A stretch of DNA of 64,000 bases from Caballeronia insecticola. Its GTDB lineage: Bacteria > Pseudomonadota > Gammaproteobacteria > Burkholderiales > Burkholderiaceae. Below, piece after piece: positions 9,257 to 19,863 of the stretch. The translations under genes were made by a program, and so were the position numbers. Location: contig NC_021288.1 in the NCBI RefSeq assembly GCF_000402035.1, positions 434,001-498,000 of the forward strand. Direction: 5' to 3'. The notes below the pieces were generated by a model. It was given only the letters and a program-made list of their open reading frames with translations. It was not told where the DNA came from and ran no database searches. The stretch's first letter is position 1; every line of letters begins with the position of its first letter.

Positions 9257-10150
9257 TCAGGACCGATCCAGTTCCCCGAACAACCAGTCGTGAAAACTCC
9301 GCACCTTCGGTAAGTCGGCGCAGGACTTGAGCAAATTCAGCGTATAGCCGTTGACCTTGAGCCCCTCCAGACCGAACGGCGCAACGAGCCGCCCCGTCTC
9401 CAGTTCGCGCTGCACGAGCAGCAAACTTTCGAGGCACACGCCACCGCCATCCGCCGCCGCGCTGATCGCCATGAACGAGCGATCGAAACGCGGTCCGCGC
9501 GAAATATCGATCGGCGTTTTGCGATGCAGACGCATGAAGTCGCGCCAGCCGACGAGACACCCCTCACTGTGGATGAGCGTGTGATGCCGCAGATCCGCGA
9601 TCGCGCGTATCGGGTGATCGCCTTCGAGCAGCGTCGCTGAGCATAGCGGCACGATCGTCTCGGTGGGCAGATCGAGCACCATCGTTCCCGCCGGCTGTAG
9701 ACGTCGTGCGCCATAACGTAAATCGATGTCCACCGCCTCGCGCGTCAAATCCACCGCATCGTTCGATGCATTCAGCCGCAAGTCGATATCCGGATGCAGC
9801 GCCGAAAAGCGCGCGAGCCGCGGCATCAGCCATTGCGTGGCGAAGCTCGGCGTCGAATGCAGCGTGAGGATGTCGCTTTTGGCGACGCGCCCGATATCGC
9901 GCGTGGCCTTCTCGATGCGCGCGAACGCCGCGCCGATCTCCTCCGCATAGTTCCGGCCGCTGTCGGTCAGGATCACCGTCCGATGCATGCGATGAAAAAG
10001 CCGCACGCTCAATTGCTCTTCCAGCATTTTGATCTGATGACTGATTGCCGATGGCGTCACGAAAAGCTCTTCCGCAGCAAGCGAGAAGGACGAAAGCCTC
10101 GCCGCCGCCTCGAAAGCCTGTATGGACTTGAGCGTGACTCGATGGTGCAT
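9257..10150 (-). CDS. LysR-family regulator, GcvA-like
   Basis: A ~297-residue LTTR. The N-terminal helix-turn-helix reads LKSIQAFEAAARLSSFSLAA, then VTPSAISHQIKMLEEQL, with FHRMHRTVILTDSGR as the wing. The rest is the LysR substrate-binding fold. The pattern LHSTPSFATQWLMPRL is typical of the GcvA/AmpR-like subgroup. ATG at 10150 is chosen; an in-frame TTG at 10177 would add nine residues. It is divergent from the transketolase operon starting at 10327, so it is the likely activator of those eight genes. The inducer is unknown. Confidence 0.9.
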   Translation of the reverse strand: MHHRVTLKSIQAFEAAARLSSFSLAAEELFVTPSAISHQIKMLEEQLSVRLFHRMHRTVILTDSGRNYAEEIGAAFARIEKATRDIGRVAKSDILTLHSTPSFATQWLMPRLARFSALHPDIDLRLNASNDAVDLTREAVDIDLRYGARRLQPAGTMVLDLPTETIVPLCSATLLEGDHPIRAIADLRHHTLIHSEGCLVGWRDFMRLHRKTPIDISRGPRFDRSFMAISAAADGGGVCLESLLLVQRELETGRLVAPFGLEGLKVNGYTLNLLKSCADLPKVRSFHDWLFGELDRS

Positions 10151-10326
10151 CGCAGTGATCGCATGAATTAGGTTCAACGATCACCCACTTTAATTCGTTT
10201 GAGCGCGGGTCATCAAGCGAATACGCTTCATATACGGGCCTGACGCACCAAACAAGGGAATACCCGGAGCGCAGGCGCAGCCGATAAAAGCCAGCCAGGC
10301 AAACAAACATACAAGGAGACACCGTC

Positions 10327-11160
10327 GTGAACACGAGCAACACGCAGCTTGCGGAACATGCGCATCGCATCCGCCGCAACGCGCTTCTGATGGGCGAAGT
10401 GCAGGGTCAGGGTTATATCGGCCAGGCGCTCGATATCGCCGATGTGCTGGCCGTCTCGTACTTCGGTGCGATGAACTACCGCGCCGACGATCCCGACTGG
10501 GAAGACCGCGACCGCTTCCTGCTCTCGAACGGCCACTATGCAATCGCGCTGTACGCCGCGCTTTTCGAAGCGGGCATCTTGCCGCAGGAAGAACTCGAAA
10601 CCTACGGCAGCGACGACAGCCGCCTGCCGATGTCCGGCATGGCGAGCTACACGCCCGGTATGGAGATGTCCGGCGGATCGCTCGGACAAGGACTCACGAT
10701 TGCAGTGGGCCGTTGTCTCGGCCTCAAGCGCCGAGGCTCGAAGGCCTTCGTCTACACGCTCTTCTCCGATGGCGAACTCGATGAAGGCGCGATCTGGGAA
10801 GGCCTCATGTCCGCCGCGCACTGGAAGCTCGACAACCTCATCGCGATGATCGACGTGAACAATCAGCAAGCCGATGGCCCTTCGTCGCAGATCATGGCGT
10901 TCGAGCCGCTCGTGCCGAAGCTCGAAGCGTTCGGCTGGTACGTGCAACGCATCGACGGCAACGATATCGACGCCGTGAAGCAGGCCTTCGACGACGCGCG
11001 CAATTTGAAAGAAGCGAAGCCGCGCATCATCGTGTGCGATACGAAGATGGGCTGCGGCGTGCCGTTCCTCGAAGAGCGTGAGAAGAATCACTTCATCCGC
11101 GTCGATCCGCACGAGTGGCAACTGGCGCTCAAAGCACTCGAAGCAGGGAGACAAGCATGA
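10327..11160 (+). CDS. Transketolase-like protein, N-terminal (ThDP-binding) subunit
   Basis: A 277-residue subunit with a GTG start behind AAGGAGAC. It carries the pyrophosphate-binding half of transketolase: SNGH near the N-terminus, a GGSLGQGL loop, and the ThDP motif running from SDGELDEGAIWEG to DVNNQQ (GDG...NN type, with SDG). The loop that in transketolases reads GHxGG has Tyr in place of the active-site His here (GYIGQAL). It overlaps the next gene by 4 bp, so the two subunits are made together. Together they should catalyse a ketol transfer; the substrates probably differ from the pentose-phosphate pathway. Known split relatives include apulose-4-phosphate and sulfofructose transketolases. 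Confidence 0.9.
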   Translation: MNTSNTQLAEHAHRIRRNALLMGEVQGQGYIGQALDIADVLAVSYFGAMNYRADDPDWEDRDRFLLSNGHYAIALYAALFEAGILPQEELETYGSDDSRLPMSGMASYTPGMEMSGGSLGQGLTIAVGRCLGLKRRGSKAFVYTLFSDGELDEGAIWEGLMSAAHWKLDNLIAMIDVNNQQADGPSSQIMAFEPLVPKLEAFGWYVQRIDGNDIDAVKQAFDDARNLKEAKPRIIVCDTKMGCGVPFLEEREKNHFIRVDPHEWQLALKALEAGRQA

Positions 11161-12140
11161 ACACGCGCCTGAAGACGTCCGCGATGATCGCGTCCATTGC
11201 AAACGAAGGACAGATCACACGTTCCGCGCCCTTTGGCCATGCACTCGTCGAGCTGGCGCGCTCGAAGACGAACATCGTCGGCATGACGGCCGATCTCGGC
11301 AAGTACACCGACCTGCACATCTTCGCGAAAGAGTTTCCCGAGCGCTATTACCAGATGGGCATGGCCGAGCAATTGCTGGTGGGCGCGGCGGCGGGCATGG
11401 CGCATGAAGGCGCGCAGCCTTTCGTCACGACCTATGCCGTGTTCGCGACGCGCCGTGCGTATGACTTCATCCATCAGGCCATCGCGGAAGATAACCTCGA
11501 CGTGAAGATCATCGCCGCGTTGCCGGGCCTCACAACGGGCTACGGTCCGAGCCATCAGGCCGCCGAAGATCTCGCGCTGATGCGCGCGATGCCGAACATG
11601 ACCGTGATCGATCCGTGCGATGCGCTCGATATCGAGCAGATGGTGCCCGCCATCGCCGCACACAAAGGCCCGGTGTACGCGCGCCTTCTGCGCGGCAACG
11701 TGCCCGTCGTGCTGGACGAATACGGCTATCGCTTCGAACTCGGCAAAGCCAAATTGTTGCGCGGCGGCGCGGACGTGTTGCTCGTGTCCTCCGGGATCAT
11801 GACGATGCGCTCGCTCGAAGCCGCGCAGGCGCTCGAACGGGACAACGTCGATGTGGCCGTGCTGCACGTGCCGACCATCAAGCCGCTCGACACCGCGACC
11901 ATTTTGCGCGAGGCGAAGCGCACCGGACGCATGGTCGTCGTCGCGGAAAACCATACGGTGATCGGTGGCCTCGGCGAAGCGGTCGCGCGCACGCTGCTGG
12001 GCGCGGGCGTCACGCCCGCATTCCGCCAGATCGCCCTGCCCGACGCCTTCCTCGATGCAGGCGCCTTACCCACGCTGCACGAACGCTACGGCATTTCCAC
12101 CGAAGCGATGTGCAACACCATCAAAGGCTGGCTCGGCTGA
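11157..12140 (+). CDS. Transketolase-like protein, C-terminal subunit
   Basis: A 327-residue partner of the preceding subunit. It contains the pyrimidine-binding (PP/Pyr) domain with VGMTADLGKYT and the catalytic Glu in YYQMGMAEQLLVGAAAGMA. The C-terminal transketolase domain follows (LLVSSGIMTMRSLEAAQ). The ATG at 11157 overlaps the previous stop (ATGA) and has GGGAG upstream. An in-frame start at 11115 is rejected because it lies inside the previous gene. The E in the MAEQ motif corresponds to the conserved ThDP N1'-interacting residue. Activity requires pairing with the N subunit. Confidence 0.9.
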   Translation: MNTRLKTSAMIASIANEGQITRSAPFGHALVELARSKTNIVGMTADLGKYTDLHIFAKEFPERYYQMGMAEQLLVGAAAGMAHEGAQPFVTTYAVFATRRAYDFIHQAIAEDNLDVKIIAALPGLTTGYGPSHQAAEDLALMRAMPNMTVIDPCDALDIEQMVPAIAAHKGPVYARLLRGNVPVVLDEYGYRFELGKAKLLRGGADVLLVSSGIMTMRSLEAAQALERDNVDVAVLHVPTIKPLDTATILREAKRTGRMVVVAENHTVIGGLGEAVARTLLGAGVTPAFRQIALPDAFLDAGALPTLHERYGISTEAMCNTIKGWLG

Positions 12141-12192
12141 GCCTTCCCTACTTGTCACGAACACACTCATCATCACTCAGGAGCACACCATC

Positions 12193-12957
12193 ATGTCAGA
12201 GTCGCGTCTTCTCGAAGGCAAGGTCGCCGTCATTTCCGGAGCGGCATCGCCGCGCGGAATCGGCATGGCGACGGCCCGCATGTTCGCGAAGCACGGCGCG
12301 AAAGTCGCCATTTTCGATCTCGATGAAGCCGCCGCGCGTGAAGCCGCCAGTACGATCGGACCGGAGCATCGCGGTTACGCGTGCAACGTGACCGACCGCG
12401 CCGCTTGCGACAAAGCGGTGGAACAAGTCATCGCGGATTTCGGCGTCATCGACGTGCTCATCAACAACGCGGGCATCACGCAGGCCGTAAAGCTGCTCGA
12501 CATCGACGCGCAAAGCTGGGACCGCGTCCTCGACGTGAATCTGCGCGGCGTGCTGTATCTGTCGCAGGCAGTCGTGCCGCAAATGAAGCGTCAGGGCAGC
12601 GGATCGATCGGCTGCATGTCGTCGGTGTCGGCGCAACGCGGCGGCGGCATTCTCGGCGGTCCGCATTATTCGGCGGCCAAGGCGGGCGTGCTCGGTCTCG
12701 CCAAGGCAATGGCGCGCGAACTCGGCAACGACGGCATCCGCGTGAACTGCGTGACGCCCGGCCTGATCCAGACTGACATCAACGCGGGCAAGATCAGCGA
12801 CGAGAAGCGCGTCGAGATTCTCGCCGGCATTCCGCTCAACCGTCTCGGCGGCCCCGACGATGTCGCGGGCGCGTTCCTTTTTCTCGCCTCGCCGATTTCC
12901 TCCTACATCACCGGCGCCGTGATCGATGTGAACGGAGGCATGCTGATCCACGGCTGA
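12193..12957 (+). CDS. SDR-family NAD(P)-dependent oxidoreductase
   Basis: A 254-residue classical short-chain dehydrogenase. The cofactor motif is the variant GAASPRGIG at residues ~16-24. NNAG is present near residue 92. Ser lies in SIGCMSSVSAQ, and the catalytic Tyr/Lys lies in YSAAKAG. The C-terminus closes with the usual VIDVNGGML. The start at 12193 follows AGGAGCACACCATC; the upstream open frame belongs to the previous gene's region. Acidic Asp after strand 2 (IFDLDE) favours NAD over NADP. It probably oxidises an alcohol group of the operon's substrate before ketol transfer. Confidence 0.9.
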   Translation: MSESRLLEGKVAVISGAASPRGIGMATARMFAKHGAKVAIFDLDEAAAREAASTIGPEHRGYACNVTDRAACDKAVEQVIADFGVIDVLINNAGITQAVKLLDIDAQSWDRVLDVNLRGVLYLSQAVVPQMKRQGSGSIGCMSSVSAQRGGGILGGPHYSAAKAGVLGLAKAMARELGNDGIRVNCVTPGLIQTDINAGKISDEKRVEILAGIPLNRLGGPDDVAGAFLFLASPISSYITGAVIDVNGGMLIHG

Positions 12958-13050
12958 CCAACTAGTGCAGCAGTAAAGACACGCGCCGCCAAGAGTGCGT
13001 GCATGACGCAATACATCCGATCGCCATAACCAGGTTTGGAGGAGCACATC

Positions 13051-14091
13051 ATGACCACCCGCTCGATCAAAAGCGGCATCGACAGGCGCACGTTCCTGAA
13101 AACGGGCGCGACCATCGCCGCAGCCGCACCGCTCTGGAGTCTCACGACGCGCCGCGCCTCGGCGGCGGACTTCTCGTACAAGCTCGCGACGGGCCAGGAC
13201 CCGACGCATCCGGTGAACATCCGCGCGCAGCAGGCCTGCGACAAGATCCGCGAAGCAACCGGCGGCAAGCTCGATATCAAGCTGTTCCCGGCGAACCAGC
13301 TCGGCTCGGACACGGACCTGCTCTCGCAAGTGCGCAGCGGCGGCGTCGAGTTCTTCAATCTCGCCTCGTCGATTCTCGCGACGCTCACGCCCGCCGCGGG
13401 CATCGTCAATACGGGATTCGCCTTTCCCGATTACGACCACGTCTGGAAAGCGATGGACGGCGATCTCGGCGGCTATGTGCGCGCGCAGGTCGAGAAATCC
13501 GGCATTCTCGCGGTCTCGAAGCCTTGGGACAACGGCTTTCGACAGATCAGCTCATCGACGCGCGTTGTGAAGACGCCCGCCGATCTGAAGGGCTTCAAGA
13601 TTCGCGTGCCGCAAGCGCCCATGCTCACCTCGCTCTTCAAGTCGCTCGATGCGGGTCCGGCGCCCATCAACTTCAACGAGTTGTATTCCGCGCTGCAAAC
13701 CGGCGTGGTGGAAGGCCAGGAAAATCCGCTGCCGATCATCGCGACGGCGAAGCTCTACGAAGTGCAGAAGTCCATCAGCCTGACTTCGCACGTCTGGGAC
13801 GCGTACTGGATTCTGGGCAATCGCCGTGCGTGGCAGGCGTTGCCCGCCGACATGCGCGCTATTGTGACGCGCGAGTTCGACGCCGCCGGCATGCTGCAAC
13901 GCGCGGACATCGCCCAGTTGAACGGCTCCCTGCGCGATCAATTGAAGGGCAAGGGCATCAACATCGTCGATGTCGATCGCGAAGGCTTTCGCGGCGCGCT
14001 CAAGAAGACCAGCTTCTACAGCGACTGGAAAGCGAAGTACGGCGAGCAAGGCTGGGGCACGCTCGAAAAGTACACCGGAAAACTGGTATGA
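13051..14091 (+). CDS. TRAP transporter substrate-binding protein (DctP)
   Basis: A 346-residue periplasmic binding protein. The N-terminus has a Tat-type signal (DRRTFLKTGATIAAAAPLW) ending near ASA-ADF. The mature part shows the DctP pattern: DPTHPVN, KLFPANQLGSDTDLLSQVRSG, and the substrate-carboxylate Arg in LKGFKIRVPQAPM. NELYSALQTGVVEGQENP follows. A strong TTGGAGGAG ribosome site sets the start at 13051, not the TTG at 13036. It overlaps the membrane component by 4 bp. DctP proteins mostly bind organic acids, so the operon's substrate is probably an acid. Confidence 0.93.
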   Translation: MTTRSIKSGIDRRTFLKTGATIAAAAPLWSLTTRRASAADFSYKLATGQDPTHPVNIRAQQACDKIREATGGKLDIKLFPANQLGSDTDLLSQVRSGGVEFFNLASSILATLTPAAGIVNTGFAFPDYDHVWKAMDGDLGGYVRAQVEKSGILAVSKPWDNGFRQISSSTRVVKTPADLKGFKIRVPQAPMLTSLFKSLDAGPAPINFNELYSALQTGVVEGQENPLPIIATAKLYEVQKSISLTSHVWDAYWILGNRRAWQALPADMRAIVTREFDAAGMLQRADIAQLNGSLRDQLKGKGINIVDVDREGFRGALKKTSFYSDWKAKYGEQGWGTLEKYTGKLV

Positions 14092-15956
14092 AAGCCATGC
14101 ACACGATCCCGCTTCCGCATCCGGCGCCACGCCGCGTGGCCGCCTTTCTCGACACATGGCTCGGCCACTTCGTGGAGATTCCCGCCGCGTTGCTGGTTCT
14201 GGCCGAGATCGTGGTGCTGTTCGCCGGCGTGACGAGCCGCTACGCGCTGCATACGCCGCTCGTCTGGTCCGACGAACTCGCGTCGATGCTGTTCCTGTGG
14301 CTCGCCATGCTCGGCGCGGTCGTCGCGCTGCGGCGCGGCGAGCATATGCGCATGACGGCGCTGGTCGGCATGGCGTCGCCCGGCGTGCGCGCGTTTCTCG
14401 ATGTGATCGCCATCGCCGCGCCGCTCGCGTTCCTGCTGATGGTGATCGGGCCGGCGCTGGACTTCGCGCAAGACGAAGCGTTCATCACCACGCCCGCGCT
14501 CGATATCCCCAACTCGTGGCGCGCGGCCGCGTTGCCGATCGGCGCCGGGCTGATGCTGCTCGTCGCGTGTCTGCGGCTCTGGTGCGTGGGGAACTGGAAG
14601 CTCACGATAGGCGCGCTCGCGCTCGTGGCCGCGATCGCCGTCGCCTTCTATGCGGCAAGCCCGCTGCTCAAAGGCCTCGGCAACCTCAATCTGCTGATCT
14701 TCTTCGTCGGCCTCGTTGCCATGTGTGTGCTCTCGGGCGTGCCTATCGCGTTCTCGTTCGGTCTCGCGACCTTCGGCTATCTCGCGCTCACCACGAGTAC
14801 GCCGCTCGTCGTGGTGGTCGGGCGCATGGACGAAGGCATGTCGCATCTGATCCTGCTTTCCGTGCCGCTTTTCGTCTTCCTCGGCCAGTTGATCGAGATG
14901 ACAGGCATGGCCAACGCGATGATCGCGTTCCTCGCCAGCATGCTCGGCCACGTGCGCGGCGGCCTGTCGTATGTGCTCGTCGGTGCGATGTATCTTGTTT
15001 CAGGCATCTCCGGCTCGAAAGCGGCGGATATGGCGGCGGTCGCGCCCGTGCTCTTCCCCGAGATGAAGGCGCGCGGCGCGAAGCCGGGCGATCTCGTCGC
15101 GCTGCTCGCGGCCACCGGCGCGCAGACGGAAACCATCCCGCCGAGTCTCGTGCTCATTACGCTCGGCTCGGTGACGGGCGTGTCGATCTCGGCGCTCTTC
15201 ACGGGCGGCATGCTGCCCGGCATCGTGCTTGCGGCGACGCTGTGCACGGTCGTCTGGTGGCGCTATCGAAGCGACGATCTCTCCAACGTGAAGCGTGCGA
15301 ACCGCAAGGAGATCGTGCGCAAGCTCGCGATCGCCCTGCCCGCGCTCGCGCTGCCCTTCGTGATTCGCGCGGCAGTGGTCGAAGGCATCGCCACGGCGAC
15401 GGAAGTATCGACCATCGGTATCGGCTATGCGGTAATCGCGGGCTTGCTGATCTATCGCCGCTTCGAATGGGCGCGCTTAAAGCCGATGTTGATCGATACC
15501 GCCGCGCTCTCCGGTGCGATCCTGCTCATCATCGGCGCGGCGACGAGCATGGCCTGGGCGCTCACGCAGTCGGGCTTCTCGGGCCAGCTCGCGCGCACGA
15601 TGGGCGCGCTGCCCGGCGGCACGGTGATGTTCATGGCGGCGTCGATACTCGTGTTTATCGTGCTCGGCAGCGTGCTGGAAGGCATTCCCGCGATCGTGCT
15701 GTTCGGGCCGCTGATGTTCCCGATCGCGCGCCAGATGGGCATCCACGACGTGCATTACGCGATGGTCGTGATCCTCTCGATGGGCGTGGGCCTGTTCGCG
15801 CCGCCGTTCGGCGTCGGCTACTACTCGGCCTGCGCGGTGAGCCGCATCCATCCGGACGAAGGCATGAAGCCGATCGTCGGCTACATCCTGGCCTTGATCG
15901 CCGGGCTGATTCTCGTCGCCGCCATTCCGTGGATTTCCACGGGCTTTCTGAAGTAA
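14088..15956 (+). CDS. TRAP transporter fused small-large membrane subunit (DctQM)
   Basis: A 622-residue fusion. Residues ~15-165 are the DctQ part with four TM segments and the conserved WSDELASMLFLWLAMLGA. Residues ~185-620 are the DctM channel with FSFGLATFGYL, GMANAMIAFLASMLGH and the hairpin region SGSKAADMAAVAPVLFPEM. The C-terminus has VLGSVLEGIPAIVLFGPL. The start ATG overlaps the dctP stop. Na+-driven import of the DctP ligand is the expected role. A later ATG at 14097 is also possible. Confidence 0.92.
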   Translation: MKAMHTIPLPHPAPRRVAAFLDTWLGHFVEIPAALLVLAEIVVLFAGVTSRYALHTPLVWSDELASMLFLWLAMLGAVVALRRGEHMRMTALVGMASPGVRAFLDVIAIAAPLAFLLMVIGPALDFAQDEAFITTPALDIPNSWRAAALPIGAGLMLLVACLRLWCVGNWKLTIGALALVAAIAVAFYAASPLLKGLGNLNLLIFFVGLVAMCVLSGVPIAFSFGLATFGYLALTTSTPLVVVVGRMDEGMSHLILLSVPLFVFLGQLIEMTGMANAMIAFLASMLGHVRGGLSYVLVGAMYLVSGISGSKAADMAAVAPVLFPEMKARGAKPGDLVALLAATGAQTETIPPSLVLITLGSVTGVSISALFTGGMLPGIVLAATLCTVVWWRYRSDDLSNVKRANRKEIVRKLAIALPALALPFVIRAAVVEGIATATEVSTIGIGYAVIAGLLIYRRFEWARLKPMLIDTAALSGAILLIIGAATSMAWALTQSGFSGQLARTMGALPGGTVMFMAASILVFIVLGSVLEGIPAIVLFGPLMFPIARQMGIHDVHYAMVVILSMGVGLFAPPFGVGYYSACAVSRIHPDEGMKPIVGYILALIAGLILVAAIPWISTGFLK

Positions 15957-16015
15957 ATCGATTCCGTTCAACGTTCAGTGACGCCGCTCCTTCGATGGAG
16001 CGGCCAGGAGAAGTC

Positions 16016-17995
16016 ATGTCTTCCATCGACACGCAACCGCTGTCGAACGCCATCCGCTTTCTCGCCATCGACGCGATCGTGCGCGCGGGCGAAGGTCATC
16101 AGGGCGTGCCGCTCGGCATGGCGGAAATCGCCACGGCGCTGTTCACGCGGCACATGAAGTTCAATCCCGCCGATCCGCAATGGCCCGACCGCGACCGCTT
16201 CGTGCTCTCGAACGGCCACGGCTCGATGCTGCTCTACGCGCTCTTGCATCTCACGGGCTATGCGAACTTCGGCATCGAGCAGATCCGCACGTTTCGCGAT
16301 ATGGGCTCGCATTGCGAGGGCCATCCGGAATTCGACACGGCCTCGGGTATCGAAGTGACGACCGGCCCGCTCGGGCAAGGCATCGCGAATGCGTTCGGCA
16401 TGGCGGTGGCCGAGGCGTATCTCAATGCGAAGTTCGGCGCCGGTATCGTCGATCACTACACGTATGCGTTCGTCGGCGACGGCTGTCTGCAGGAAGGCGT
16501 GGGACAGGAGATGATCTCGCTCGCCGGGCATCTGAAGCTCGGCAAACTGATTCTGTGCTGGGACGACAACCAGATCACCGACGACGGCAGCACGACGCTC
16601 TCCATCAGCGAAAACGTGAGCGAACGCTTTCGCGTGGCGGGCTGGCATGTGATCGAAGTCGATGGCCACGATCTCGAAGCCGTGTCGAATGCGCTTGCGC
16701 AGGCCAAAGCCGATCCGCGTCCGTCGATGCTCGCATGCCGCACGACGATTGCACGCGGCATCGCGCGTCTGCAGGGTCAGCGCGGCGGACATAGCGGACG
16801 TCTCTTCGACAAAGATTCCGACGCCGCACGCACGTCGATGAACTGGCCGCATGCGCCGTTCGAGATTCCCGACGATGTGCTGCACGCATGGCGCGAAGCT
16901 GGGCGGCGCAGCGAAGAGGAATATCGCGCATGGCGCGAGCGCGTCGCTTCGTTGCCCGCGGAAGCGCGTGCGGAGTTAGAGCGCATTCAGGCCGGCGAAT
17001 TGCCCGAAGGATGGCGGCGAACGCTGGACGCCTACAAACGCGATGCTCCGGCGCGCGATGACACGCCGGGCGGCATCATGATCTCCGCCGAGATCAACGA
17101 TCTGCTCGCAAACGCGCTGCCCGAACGCATGGTCGCCTGCGCCGATCTCGAAGCGCCGACGAGCCACAAACGCAGCCTGCGCGCGTTCACCGCCGAAGAC
17201 CGCGGCGGCGCCTATGTGCATTGCGGCGTGCGCGAACACGTGATGGGCGCGATGGCGAACGGCATGGCCGCGCACGGCGGCGTGATTCCGCTCACCGTCA
17301 CCTATCTCGCGTTTTCCGATTACGAACGCCCCGCGATGCGCATGGCCGCGCTCATGGGCCTGCCGGTGAAGTTCGTCTTCAGCCACGATTCGATCGGCGT
17401 CGGCAAGAACGGACCGACGCATCAGCCCGTCGAGATTCTCGCGTCGCTGCGCGCGATGCCGAACATGTACGTGTTCCGTCCCGCCGATGCCGTCGAGGCC
17501 GCCGAATGCTGGATGCTCGCCTACGACCGCAAGCACGGCCCGAGCACGATGGTGTTCGCGCGCCAGGCGCTGCCGCTCGTGCGCACGCAACACGAGGACG
17601 AGAACCGCTCGGCGCGCGGCGGCTATGTGCTCGCGGAAGCCGAAGGCGGCGCACGGCGCGTGACGCTCATCGCCACCGGCTCGGAAGTCGCATGCGCACT
17701 CGCGGCGCGCGAGCAGTTGCAGGCGGCGGGCATTGCGACGGCAGTCGTGTCGATGCCGTGTTGCGAACGCTTCGACGAGCAAGACGCCGCGTATCGATCG
17801 AGCGTGCTCGGCGCGGACACCGTGCGTGTCGTGGTGGAAGCGGCCGTGCGTTTCGGCTGGGACCGCGTGATCGGCGAACGCGGCGGTTTCGTCGGCATGA
17901 AAGGCTTCGGCGCTTCCGGGCCGGCCGAGGCGCTCTATGAACACTTTGGCATCACGCCGCGACATATCGTCGAGGAAGTGAAGCGGCATCTTTGA
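16016..17995 (+). CDS. tkt: Full-length transketolase
   Basis: A 659-residue single-chain transketolase. GHQGVPLGMA keeps the active-site His of the family GHPGAPMGMA. SNGHGSMLLYALLHLTGY follows, and the ThDP motif runs from GDGCLQEGV to the WDDN segment. In the second half it has the catalytic REHVMGAMANGMA, HDSIGVGKNGPTHQPVE and a C-terminal domain ending in FGITPRHIVEE. Many open bases precede it in frame, but CAGGAGAAG places the start at 16016. It is closer to canonical TktA than the split pair 4 kb upstream. It probably recycles pentose- or tetrose-phosphates from the pathway. The symbol denotes the family, not proof of housekeeping function. Confidence 0.9.
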   Translation: MSSIDTQPLSNAIRFLAIDAIVRAGEGHQGVPLGMAEIATALFTRHMKFNPADPQWPDRDRFVLSNGHGSMLLYALLHLTGYANFGIEQIRTFRDMGSHCEGHPEFDTASGIEVTTGPLGQGIANAFGMAVAEAYLNAKFGAGIVDHYTYAFVGDGCLQEGVGQEMISLAGHLKLGKLILCWDDNQITDDGSTTLSISENVSERFRVAGWHVIEVDGHDLEAVSNALAQAKADPRPSMLACRTTIARGIARLQGQRGGHSGRLFDKDSDAARTSMNWPHAPFEIPDDVLHAWREAGRRSEEEYRAWRERVASLPAEARAELERIQAGELPEGWRRTLDAYKRDAPARDDTPGGIMISAEINDLLANALPERMVACADLEAPTSHKRSLRAFTAEDRGGAYVHCGVREHVMGAMANGMAAHGGVIPLTVTYLAFSDYERPAMRMAALMGLPVKFVFSHDSIGVGKNGPTHQPVEILASLRAMPNMYVFRPADAVEAAECWMLAYDRKHGPSTMVFARQALPLVRTQHEDENRSARGGYVLAEAEGGARRVTLIATGSEVACALAAREQLQAAGIATAVVSMPCCERFDEQDAAYRSSVLGADTVRVVVEAAVRFGWDRVIGERGGFVGMKGFGASGPAEALYEHFGITPRHIVEEVKRHL

Positions 17996-18030
17996 TTCAC
18001 GCACAAAATCACGCACAGCAAGGAAAGACC

Positions 18031-18987
18031 ATGCAGAAGATCGTTTTTCTGGACCGCGAGACGCTCGCGCCGCAGATCCGCCTGAAGCGGCCCGCGTTCG
18101 AGCACGAGTTGATCGAGTTCGACCGCACCACGCCCGATGAAGTCGTGACGCGTCTTGCGGGCGCGAGCATCGCGATCACCAACAAGGTCGCGATCACGGC
18201 GGAGGCGCTGGACCGGTTGCCGGAACTTAAGCTCATCGCGGTGGCCGCGACGGGCACCGATTGCATCGACAAGAGCGCGTGCGAGCAGCGCGGCATTGTC
18301 GTGTCGAACATTCGCGGCTATGCGGTGAACACCGTGCCCGAACATACGTTCGCGCTGATGCTCGCGCTGCGGCGCAATCTGGTCGCGTATCGCGACGACG
18401 TGCTCGAAGGCGAATGGCAAAAGGCCGGGCAGTTCTGCTTCTTCAATCATCCGATTCGCGATCTCGGCGGCGCGACGCTCGGCATCATCGGCGAAGGCGT
18501 GCTCGGGCAGCGCGTCGCGGAGATCGCGCGCGTGTTCGGCATGCGGCCGCTCTTTGCCGCGCACAAAGGGCGCGAAGGACTCGGGCCGCTCTACACGCCA
18601 TGGGACGACGTGCTCGCGACGAGCGACGTCATCACCATTCACAGCCCGCTCACGCCGAACACGCGCGGCATGCTGTCGACAGCCGAGTTTCGCGCGATGA
18701 AGAAGAAGCCGCTCATCATCAACACGGCGCGCGGCGGGCTCGTGGACGAAGCGGCGCTCGTCGAGGCGCTCGATGAAGGCTGGATCAGCGGCGCGGGCTT
18801 CGATGTGCTGTCGACCGAACCGCCCGCGCCCGGCAATCCGTTGATGCGCGTGGCGGGCCGGCCGAACGTGATCGTGACGCCGCACGTGGCGTGGGCGTCG
18901 GATGAAGCGCAGCAGACGCTCGCGGATCAATTGATCGACAACATCGCGGCTTTCGTCGCGGGTGCGCCGGTCAATGTCGTGCGCTAA
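18031..18987 (+). CDS. D-2-hydroxyacid dehydrogenase, hydroxypyruvate/glycerate type
   Basis: A 318-residue NAD-dependent enzyme of the HprA/SerA superfamily. The Rossmann motif is LGIIGEGVLGQRVAEIA. The Arg of the catalytic triad is in INTARGGLVDE, Glu in FDVLSTEPP, and His in TPHVAWAS. The N-terminal segment ATGTDCIDKSACEQRGIVVSNIRGYAV (quoted in part) and the following TVPEHTFALML resemble hydroxypyruvate reductases. The start at 18031 follows AAGGAAAG. With the next gene it suggests that three-carbon glycerate/hydroxypyruvate-like acids are intermediates. Confidence 0.85.
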   Translation: MQKIVFLDRETLAPQIRLKRPAFEHELIEFDRTTPDEVVTRLAGASIAITNKVAITAEALDRLPELKLIAVAATGTDCIDKSACEQRGIVVSNIRGYAVNTVPEHTFALMLALRRNLVAYRDDVLEGEWQKAGQFCFFNHPIRDLGGATLGIIGEGVLGQRVAEIARVFGMRPLFAAHKGREGLGPLYTPWDDVLATSDVITIHSPLTPNTRGMLSTAEFRAMKKKPLIINTARGGLVDEAALVEALDEGWISGAGFDVLSTEPPAPGNPLMRVAGRPNVIVTPHVAWASDEAQQTLADQLIDNIAAFVAGAPVNVVR

Positions 18988-19017
18988 ACGTTAGCGGTGA
19001 ATGGTTAAAGGCGACTC

Positions 19018-19863
19018 ATGAACGTGACATTCATCGGCATCGGCGCGATCGGCTTGCCGATGGCGCAGCGGATCAGCGCCTCGGGCCACGCCGTGACGGG
19101 CGTCGATCTGTCGAGCCGCGCGCGCGGGCTTGCGCACGAAAGCGGCCTCGCCGCCGTCGATAGCTTCGCGTCCGCGCCGCCCGCCGACGTGGTCATCGCG
19201 ATGGTGGCGACGCCGCAGCAACTGGCCTCGCTCGTCGATGGCGTCGGCGCGAAACTTTCCGGCCAGACGTGGGCGATCATGTCGACGGTCGGCCCGGACG
19301 CCGTGCGTCGGCAAGGCGAACGGCTGGCGGCAGCAGGCGCGCGCGTGATCGACGCGCCGGTGACGGGCGGCACCGCGCGCGCGAAACGCGGCGAGCTCGT
19401 GATCTTCACGGCGGGCGCGCCACGCGATATCGACGACGCGCGCCCCGTGCTCGATGCAATGGGCAGCGTGCGCGTCACGGGCACGAAGCTCGGCGACGGG
19501 CAGGCGATCAAACTCGTGAACCAGCACTTGTGCTCGGTGCACATCGTGGCCGCGGCGGAGGCGCTGAATCTGGCGCGTGCGCTGGGTCTCGATCCGTCCG
19601 CCGTGCTCGATCTGGTCGAACAAGGCGCGGCCGGTTCGTGGATGCTGTCCGATCGCGGCCCGCGCATGCTGCAAGACGCCGACGTGACCGTGACCAGCGC
19701 CATCGACATCTTCGTGAAGGACAGCGATCTCGTGGACGCGGCCGCGCAAGCATGCGGCGCCGATGTTCCGCTGCTGCGGCTTGCGAATGCGCGCTTTCAC
19801 GCGGCGGCGGACGCGGGTTTAGGCGCGAGTGACGATAGCCGCGTCATCGAGACCTGGCGATGA
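19018..19863 (+). CDS. Beta-hydroxyacid dehydrogenase (3-HIBADH / tartronate semialdehyde reductase / threonate dehydrogenase family)
   Basis: A 281-residue NAD(P)-binding enzyme. The N-terminal Rossmann motif is FIGIGAIGLPMA. The substrate loop is IDAPVTGGTARAKRGELVI and the catalytic Lys lies in GDGQAIKLVNQHLCSVH. GSWMLSDRGPRML in the C-terminal helical domain resembles L-threonate/erythronate dehydrogenases (LtnD type). It closes the operon, 30 bp after the hydroxyacid dehydrogenase and convergent with the next gene. It likely acts on a 2,3-dihydroxy acid or a semialdehyde. The precise substrate is unresolved. Confidence 0.85.
   Translation: MNVTFIGIGAIGLPMAQRISASGHAVTGVDLSSRARGLAHESGLAAVDSFASAPPADVVIAMVATPQQLASLVDGVGAKLSGQTWAIMSTVGPDAVRRQGERLAAAGARVIDAPVTGGTARAKRGELVIFTAGAPRDIDDARPVLDAMGSVRVTGTKLGDGQAIKLVNQHLCSVHIVAAAEALNLARALGLDPSAVLDLVEQGAAGSWMLSDRGPRMLQDADVTVTSAIDIFVKDSDLVDAAAQACGADVPLLRLANARFHAAADAGLGASDDSRVIETWR

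Follow-up and report, generated by a model that had tools for sequence, protein, structure and literature searches.

A conserved gene cluster around a split transketolase

The window analysed here is a 64,000-nucleotide stretch of the Caballeronia insecticola genome (contig NC_021288.1, positions 434,001 to 498,000), and its positions 10327 to 19863 hold eight co-directional genes on the + strand that form a widespread catabolic module with two unusual transketolases. The positions and order of the genes, as reported in a first-pass annotation, were verified by direct reading of the sequence. The run begins with the N-terminal, thiamine diphosphate (ThDP)-binding subunit of a split transketolase, TkN (10327..11160, GTG start; PF00456), whose top PDB match is 6yak (E 2.2e-59), the N-terminal component of a split-chain transketolase. 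The C-terminal subunit, TkC (11157..12140), carries the pyrimidine-binding and C domains (PF02779, PF02780; best PDB 6yaj). These are followed by a short-chain dehydrogenase/reductase (SDR; 12193..12957; PF13561/PF00106; nearest PDB 7krk, 330 bits), the solute-binding protein DctP of a tripartite ATP-independent periplasmic (TRAP) importer (13051..14091; PF03480), a fused DctQ-DctM permease, DctQM (14088..15956; PF04290 and PF06808), and a full-length transketolase of a separate clade with the motif I-P-Y-H-R (16016..17995; TIGR00232, 715.8 bits, cut-off 682). The DctP, DctQ and DctM domains all scored above their Pfam cut-offs, which identifies the importer as a TRAP system. The last two genes encode an HprA-like D-2-hydroxyacid dehydrogenase (18031..18987; NF005069, 353.6 bits, below the cut-off of 448) and an accessory dehydrogenase of the HIBADH family (19018..19863), for which the L-threonate dehydrogenase model NF043037 was the top curated match with 205.4 bits against a required 350. 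Both dehydrogenases stayed below every curated NCBIfam cut-off listed for them, and at the family level Pfam and NCBIfam agreed with the earlier labels. The 4-bp overlaps, previously described as several, were present at only two of the seven junctions (TkN/TkC and DctP/DctQM), and the other five were gapped by 30–93 bp (52, 93, 59, 35 and 30 bp). Prediction of regulatory signals returned no sigma-70 promoter and six terminators, with no excess over shuffled sequence.

A scan with DctP matched 275 relatives, the best 80 of which were kept as named loci (L numbers). Members of the cluster were called from tblastn matches of nine window proteins within 9 kb of DctP, and the 67 of 80 loci with at least 7 kb before and at least 6.5 kb after DctP were counted as full. 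As the loci were gathered through DctP, the counts describe linkage to DctP and not frequency. In all 67 full loci, LysR, TkN, TkC, the SDR and DctQM were found around DctP; TkN, TkC, SDR and DctQM were complete in 74 of 80 loci when cut contigs were included, and the SDR was present in 80 of 80. The linkage of this gene set is far beyond chance. The full-length transketolase occurred in 54 of the 67 full loci and the HprA-like gene in 47, each of which also had the full-length transketolase, indicating that these two are optional. The HIBADH-like gene was found in 19 of the 67, so it is accessory and was dropped as a candidate core member, and the single eight-gene unit first assumed did not hold. 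HprA was the only reductase in 36 full loci and HIBADH in 8, both were present in 11 and neither in 12, depicting a partial replacement of one by the other. The HIBADH-like gene comes after HprA in L054 and L056, as in the window, and an 80% homologue comes after TkC of an adjoining second split-transketolase cluster in L055, L058, L061 and L062 (L058 and L036 being one genome). By gene calls, any given unlabelled family lay within the cluster in at most 2 of the 80 loci, which bears out the earlier observation that no kinase or isomerase lies within it.

An independent search with TkN against 398 genomes drawn from the phylum (match threshold 1e-80) gave matches in 22 genomes and 24 places, two of them in the own genome, and 20 of the 22 places outside it were fetched (G878 and G857 left out). 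The SDR (60–75% identity) lay within the cluster in 18 of these 20 loci. TRAP genes were present in eight (L173, L177, L178, L180, L181, L183, L187, and L190), a major facilitator superfamily (MFS) transporter like that of other copies in five (four at 75–83%, L186 at 22%), and Pfam-confirmed ATP-binding cassette (ABC) importer genes in L182, L184, and L188. Because the SDR and the split transketolase were kept in 18 of 20 loci while the importers varied, they are the functional core, and the importer (TRAP, MFS, or ABC) is exchangeable. In a class-wide sample of 369 genomes (TkN threshold 1e-60), two gave matches, namely the own genome and G273, in which the DctP of the cluster is 31% identical.

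The phosphate motif of the two transketolases

One study (PMC11659671) describes the residues RSFHR as orienting phosphate in transketolases, including the split enzyme of Carboxydothermus, and gives RAFDR for the sulfofructose (SF) transketolase. These residues correspond to positions 358, 385, 434, 461, and 520 in E. coli TktA numbering, and R,S,F,H,R was intact in E. coli TktA and in two transketolases elsewhere in this genome. Neither transketolase of the cluster has the housekeeping-type RSFHR. In the split enzymes, positions 385/434/461/520 read Y,Y,L,R in 75 of 75 sequences from the named loci and in 21 of 21 in a second alignment that includes the window, so that S385, F434, and H461 were altered in every one; the 75 enzymes also carried Y in place of H26 and S in place of H100, as well as a Y close to D469. 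The full-length clade had I,P,Y,H,R in all but one of its 59 sequences, the exception being W,A,Y,H,R, and R358 and S385 were altered and N469 present in 59 of 59. The ThDP and metal residues D155, N185, and E411 (E. coli numbering) were retained in all 75 split and all 59 full-length enzymes. Split and full-length groups each formed a clade with 100% bootstrap support (100/99 and 100/100) in a tree of 60 rows picked by the analyst from larger sets, in which several outgroups sit on long branches of uncertain placement.

In public records, some members of this family are called 'apulose-4-phosphate transketolase subunit A' (P0096, P0097) and most just 'transketolase', and a 91% Paraburkholderia protein of the same subfamily carries the name y4mO transketolase family protein. 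The y4mO protein, which originates from Rhizobium NGR234, is called uncharacterised, and no paper on it or its neighbours was found in the literature search.

Other settings of the module and the LysR regulator

The own genome holds a second copy on C3 with the order LysR-SDR-MFS-TkN-TkC, and SDR-MFS-TkN-TkC recurs in Pantoea and Caballeronia plasmids. The MFS protein of this second copy was closest to the D-galactonate transporter model TIGR00893 (312.7 bits, cut-off 395), and a different MFS in L134 was closest to TIGR00883 (351.8 bits, cut-off 443). The two TkN-TkC copies of this genome (window 10327-12140 and L136:9737-11577) are a mosaic, with DNA identities of 96% for TkN, 83.5% for TkC and 71% for the SDR, and with full 150-base blocks ranging from 75% to 99%, a pattern suggestive of gene conversion from one cluster to the other.

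The TRAP form is kept on Azoarcus, Bradyrhizobium, Azospirillum, and Skermanella plasmids. On three plasmids of Sinorhizobium, Rhizobium, and Agrobacterium, which share the order LysR-SDR-TkN-TkC-TRAP-ABC-amidohydrolase, the cluster is joined by a sugar ABC importer and an amidohydrolase, and L180 is likewise. The one amidohydrolase scanned, from the Agrobacterium plasmid, belongs to Amidohydro_2 with PDB 4dlf as its closest structure (E 3.8e-15), which we take to be a cog3618 lactonase. An SMP-30/gluconolactonase-family gene (c10) was found in 10 loci and lay no more than 300 bp from the cluster in 9. The c10-bearing loci that were opened were Bradyrhizobium, with ABC importer genes beyond c10; in L115, Pfam placed the gene in the SMP-30/gluconolactonase family and identified ABC permeases next to it, and in B. 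guangzhouense an annotated lactonase and carbohydrate ABC genes lie at the cluster. Judged by family, the amidohydrolase and SMP-30-type genes are two unrelated lactonase-like families that joined independently, and two such families on one core fit the import of a sugar acid and its lactone.

Two divergent loci, L183 and L190, have in addition a dihydroxyacetone-kinase-family (Dak-type) kinase and an AP_endonuc_2 protein (L183:12336-14904, L190:2-10487); L190 further encodes a transaldolase, and its contig breaks off within a transketolase gene of which the start is present. The combination is compatible with a free ketose product. In L185 and L188 a DXR-like (DRL_cat) oxidoreductase, with 3upl as its nearest solved structure, adjoins the split transketolase, and a 71% homologue in L051, from the genus of the window, adjoins a 56% DctP paralogue. 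Three same-genus genomes that carry the DRL operon also hold the split transketolase; there (L051, L052, and L053) the DRL oxidoreductase, a TRAP importer, and a tartronate-semialdehyde-reductase-like enzyme make up a second, unassigned sugar-acid operon. A DRL search of the own genome gave no match, and its control also matched nowhere, so no claim is drawn from it.

Two further plasmid loci are set apart. On a Mariluticola plasmid (L167:5637-11057), mtnK-mtnA precedes a split pair resembling DXS/transketolase and a RuBisCO-like protein, an arrangement close to a methionine-salvage or 5-deoxysugar route but so far without explanation. On an Apilactobacillus plasmid (L164:5980-7708), genes named aptA/aptB lie amid ligase, methyltransferase, and aminotransferase genes, and the apulose naming is probably wrong.

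Upstream of TkN, the divergent LysR gene noted earlier was found as described (9257..10177, − strand). Its product is a GcvA-like LysR-family regulator (NF008352, 294.8 bits, cut-off 288), for which a TTG start at 10177 is listed and the ATG at 10150 is probably the real one. Of the 76 loci in which an upstream LysR gene was called, the nearest one was divergent in 63 and co-directional in 13. Between LysR and TkN, a 13-base stretch (10191-10203) showed no variation among the 15 Burkholderiaceae intergenic regions aligned, comprising the window and 14 loci picked by the analyst. A probable regulator-binding region (10164..10203) combines TGAATT-N3-TTCA (10164-10176) with this stretch, TAATTCGTTTGAG (10191-10203), and is likely an operator.

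Proposed pathway and candidate substrates

On balance, we read the genes as a sugar-acid catabolic operon whose general mechanism would be to oxidise and then to ketol-cleave. Judged from the transporter families, the TRAP importer would take up a polyhydroxy carboxylate. The SDR would then oxidise the secondary alcohol beside the terminal CH2OH to an alpha-hydroxyketone acid, HOCH2-CO-C(OH)(R)-COOH or a longer homologue. The split transketolase would load the HOCH2-CO unit on ThDP and hand it to an acceptor aldehyde, so that an oxo acid remains. Depending on R, this oxo acid would be hydroxypyruvate (CH2OH), pyruvate (CH3) or glyoxylate (H), which the HprA-like and/or the HIBADH-like enzyme would reduce, and the specialised full-length transketolase might pass the C2 unit onward. 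We propose that the HprA-like enzyme acts as a hydroxypyruvate/glyoxylate reductase; when R is CH2OH, the oxo acid left would be hydroxypyruvate, on which an HprA naturally acts. The outline in the first-pass annotation, in which an imported acid is oxidised by the SDR and cleaved by ketol transfer, is supported in its main step (acid import, a single SDR oxidation, and ketol cleavage).

Several results weigh against this reading. Both transketolases may still bind phosphate, because R520 is retained in both and H461 is kept in the full-length enzyme. Position 358 is a gap in every split enzyme of the main alignment, the kinase-linked ones included, and is uninformative there; a smaller alignment reads it as S, P, or A. 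Kinase-linked split enzymes are themselves altered at 385/434/461/520 (S,A,S,R in Agrobacterium and T,A,N,G in Sodalis), and a Paracoccaceae homologue (53%) beside two kinases has the Y26/S100/Y385/Y469 signature too. As kinase-linked relatives are altered as well, motif loss was rejected as proof of an unphosphorylated substrate. The cluster lacks the SDR in two of the 20 phylum-sample loci (L184, L189) and an adjoining importer in three (L172, L174, and L175), and among the 67 full loci of the DctP scan, 13 lack both the full-length transketolase and HprA and 12 have neither reductase. L183 and L190 may differ in function, since their AP_endonuc_2 proteins show hardly any similarity (28% over 116 residues, E 0.003) and the two kinases share 39%.

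No homologous cluster with an assigned pathway was found in the literature searched, most subscription journals being outside its coverage, and the cluster was compared with known systems. AptA/AptB, the apulose-4-phosphate transketolase, is a split enzyme of branched plant sugar catabolism whose phosphorylated donor comes from a kinase. It resembles the present enzyme in being split, whereas no kinase lies within our cluster: no recurring unlabelled gene that could be a linked sugar kinase was found inside it in the 80 named loci. Dak-type kinases do occur in L183 and L190 of the phylum sample. In the tree, FGGY-linked split enzymes fell outside the clade. Apiose degradation via apulose-4-phosphate was set aside, as there is no kinase inside the cluster and the kinase-linked split transketolases that were opened lie outside the clade. 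In the threonate/erythronate pathway LtnD/DenD-OtnI-OtnK-OtnC, which proceeds by an isomerase, a 4-kinase, and a decarboxylase, polyhydroxy-acid import, NAD-linked oxidation, and a HIBADH-family enzyme are common to both systems, whereas ketol transfer is proposed here and the cluster has no kinase. The SqwGH sulfo-transketolase pathway (PMC11659671) has in common with our cluster a split transketolase, a ketol unit from an unphosphorylated donor (here proposed), and an altered head-group motif, whereas it needs sugar isomerases and has sulfofructose as substrate and RAFDR as motif, against x-Y-Y-L-R and an SDR plus acid importer here. No recurring unlabelled gene of the linked-isomerase type was found inside the cluster in the 80 loci, with distal neighbours only partly annotated. 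The sulfosugar pathway was dropped as its motif and neighbours do not fit.

As for the acid itself, we tentatively regard a C5 acid branched at C2, resembling isoapionate or a 2-C-methyl-tetronate, as the likeliest substrate, and it is favoured over C4 tetronates. The DRL neighbours of the split transketolase and of the DctP paralogue point to branched carbon skeletons, DRL oxidoreductases being enzymes that, judging from their family, would presumably rearrange such skeletons. The closest solved relative of DctP is RPB_2686 (PDB 4oan; 55% identity over 305 residues), which is reported to have been modelled with 2-acetolactate, a branched C5 acid; the AlphaFold model of DctP (mean predicted local distance difference test score 73.7, fair) was used only for neighbours. 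A TRAP review lists 2-acetolactate among TRAP ligands with the protein unnamed. In six Methylobacterium loci, 74–77% homologues of RPB_2686 are present, no more than 3 kb from the transketolase or permease of the cluster, as a second DctP, which in the one Methylobacterium locus scanned adjoins an acyl-CoA synthetase. Naming the substrate from 4oan was set aside, as its ligand is unconfirmed and its closer homologues are the second DctP and not the cluster's own. The whole could, with the same tentativeness, be a kinase-free way of degrading C2-branched plant sugar acids and the corresponding lactones (isoapionate/2-C-methyl-erythronate type), in which two transketolases that have abandoned phosphosugars would pass unphosphorylated ketol units and release hydroxypyruvate or pyruvate directly.

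Somewhat less probable is a linear C4 substrate, in which threonate or erythronate would be oxidised to 3-oxo-tetronate, the split transketolase would yield glyoxylate and a C2 unit, and HprA would reduce the glyoxylate. The cluster HIBADH-like proteins scanned matched L-threonate dehydrogenase best (L188 334, L099 313, L183 285, and the window 205 bits), although none attained its cut-off of 350. The TRAP review names pantoate/D-erythronate as ligands, and the Dak-type kinases in L183 and L190 would suit dihydroxyacetone from decarboxylated 3-oxo-tetronate; however, the DRL link suggests a branched skeleton, and three four-carbon-acid-kinase-family genes lie elsewhere in the genome, so the classical route may already exist.

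We consider a linear C5–C6 aldonate unlikelier still. Here the SDR would produce a 4-keto-pentonate or 5-keto-hexonate, and the transketolase would leave tartronate semialdehyde or a tetruronate for reduction by the HIBADH-like or HprA-like enzyme. The MFS importer closest to the D-galactonate transporter model, the two lactonase-like families alongside sugar ABC importers, and the HIBADH-family genes adjoining TkC in several lineages are consistent with such a substrate, but the 12 of 67 full loci with neither reductase argue against it, as does the branched C5 acid 2-acetolactate reported as modelled in the nearest solved DctP. That the cluster encodes an established pathway for phosphorylated or sulfonated sugars, of the apulose-4-phosphate or sulfofructose transketolase type with its kinase or isomerase encoded elsewhere, is improbable: record names and the kinase-adjoining split transketolases among the nearest tree outgroups (on long, unsure branches) suggest it, but no unlabelled family recurs within the cluster beyond 2 of the 80 loci, the three kinase-linked relatives opened fall outside the clade and do not exceed 53% identity, and the motif is neither RSFHR nor the RAFDR of the SF transketolase.

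Since the genes appear to import, oxidise, and split an acid with transketolases altered in their phosphate motif, the cluster points to an undescribed way of consuming plant-derived sugar acids. Two transketolase subfamilies named 'transketolase' or 'apulose-4-phosphate transketolase' probably act otherwise, and the candidate substrates form a short list that makes the question directly testable. The module is spread over plant- and soil-associated Pseudomonadota and also over rhizobial plasmids. If unphosphorylated sugar acids are indeed cleaved, this would be a new entry of plant-derived acids into central metabolism and a source of new carboligation biocatalysts, and an operon type that is so far uncharacterised, although it occurs in Burkholderiaceae, Bradyrhizobium, Methylobacterium, Azospirillum, Rhizobium, and Pantoea, would gain a function.

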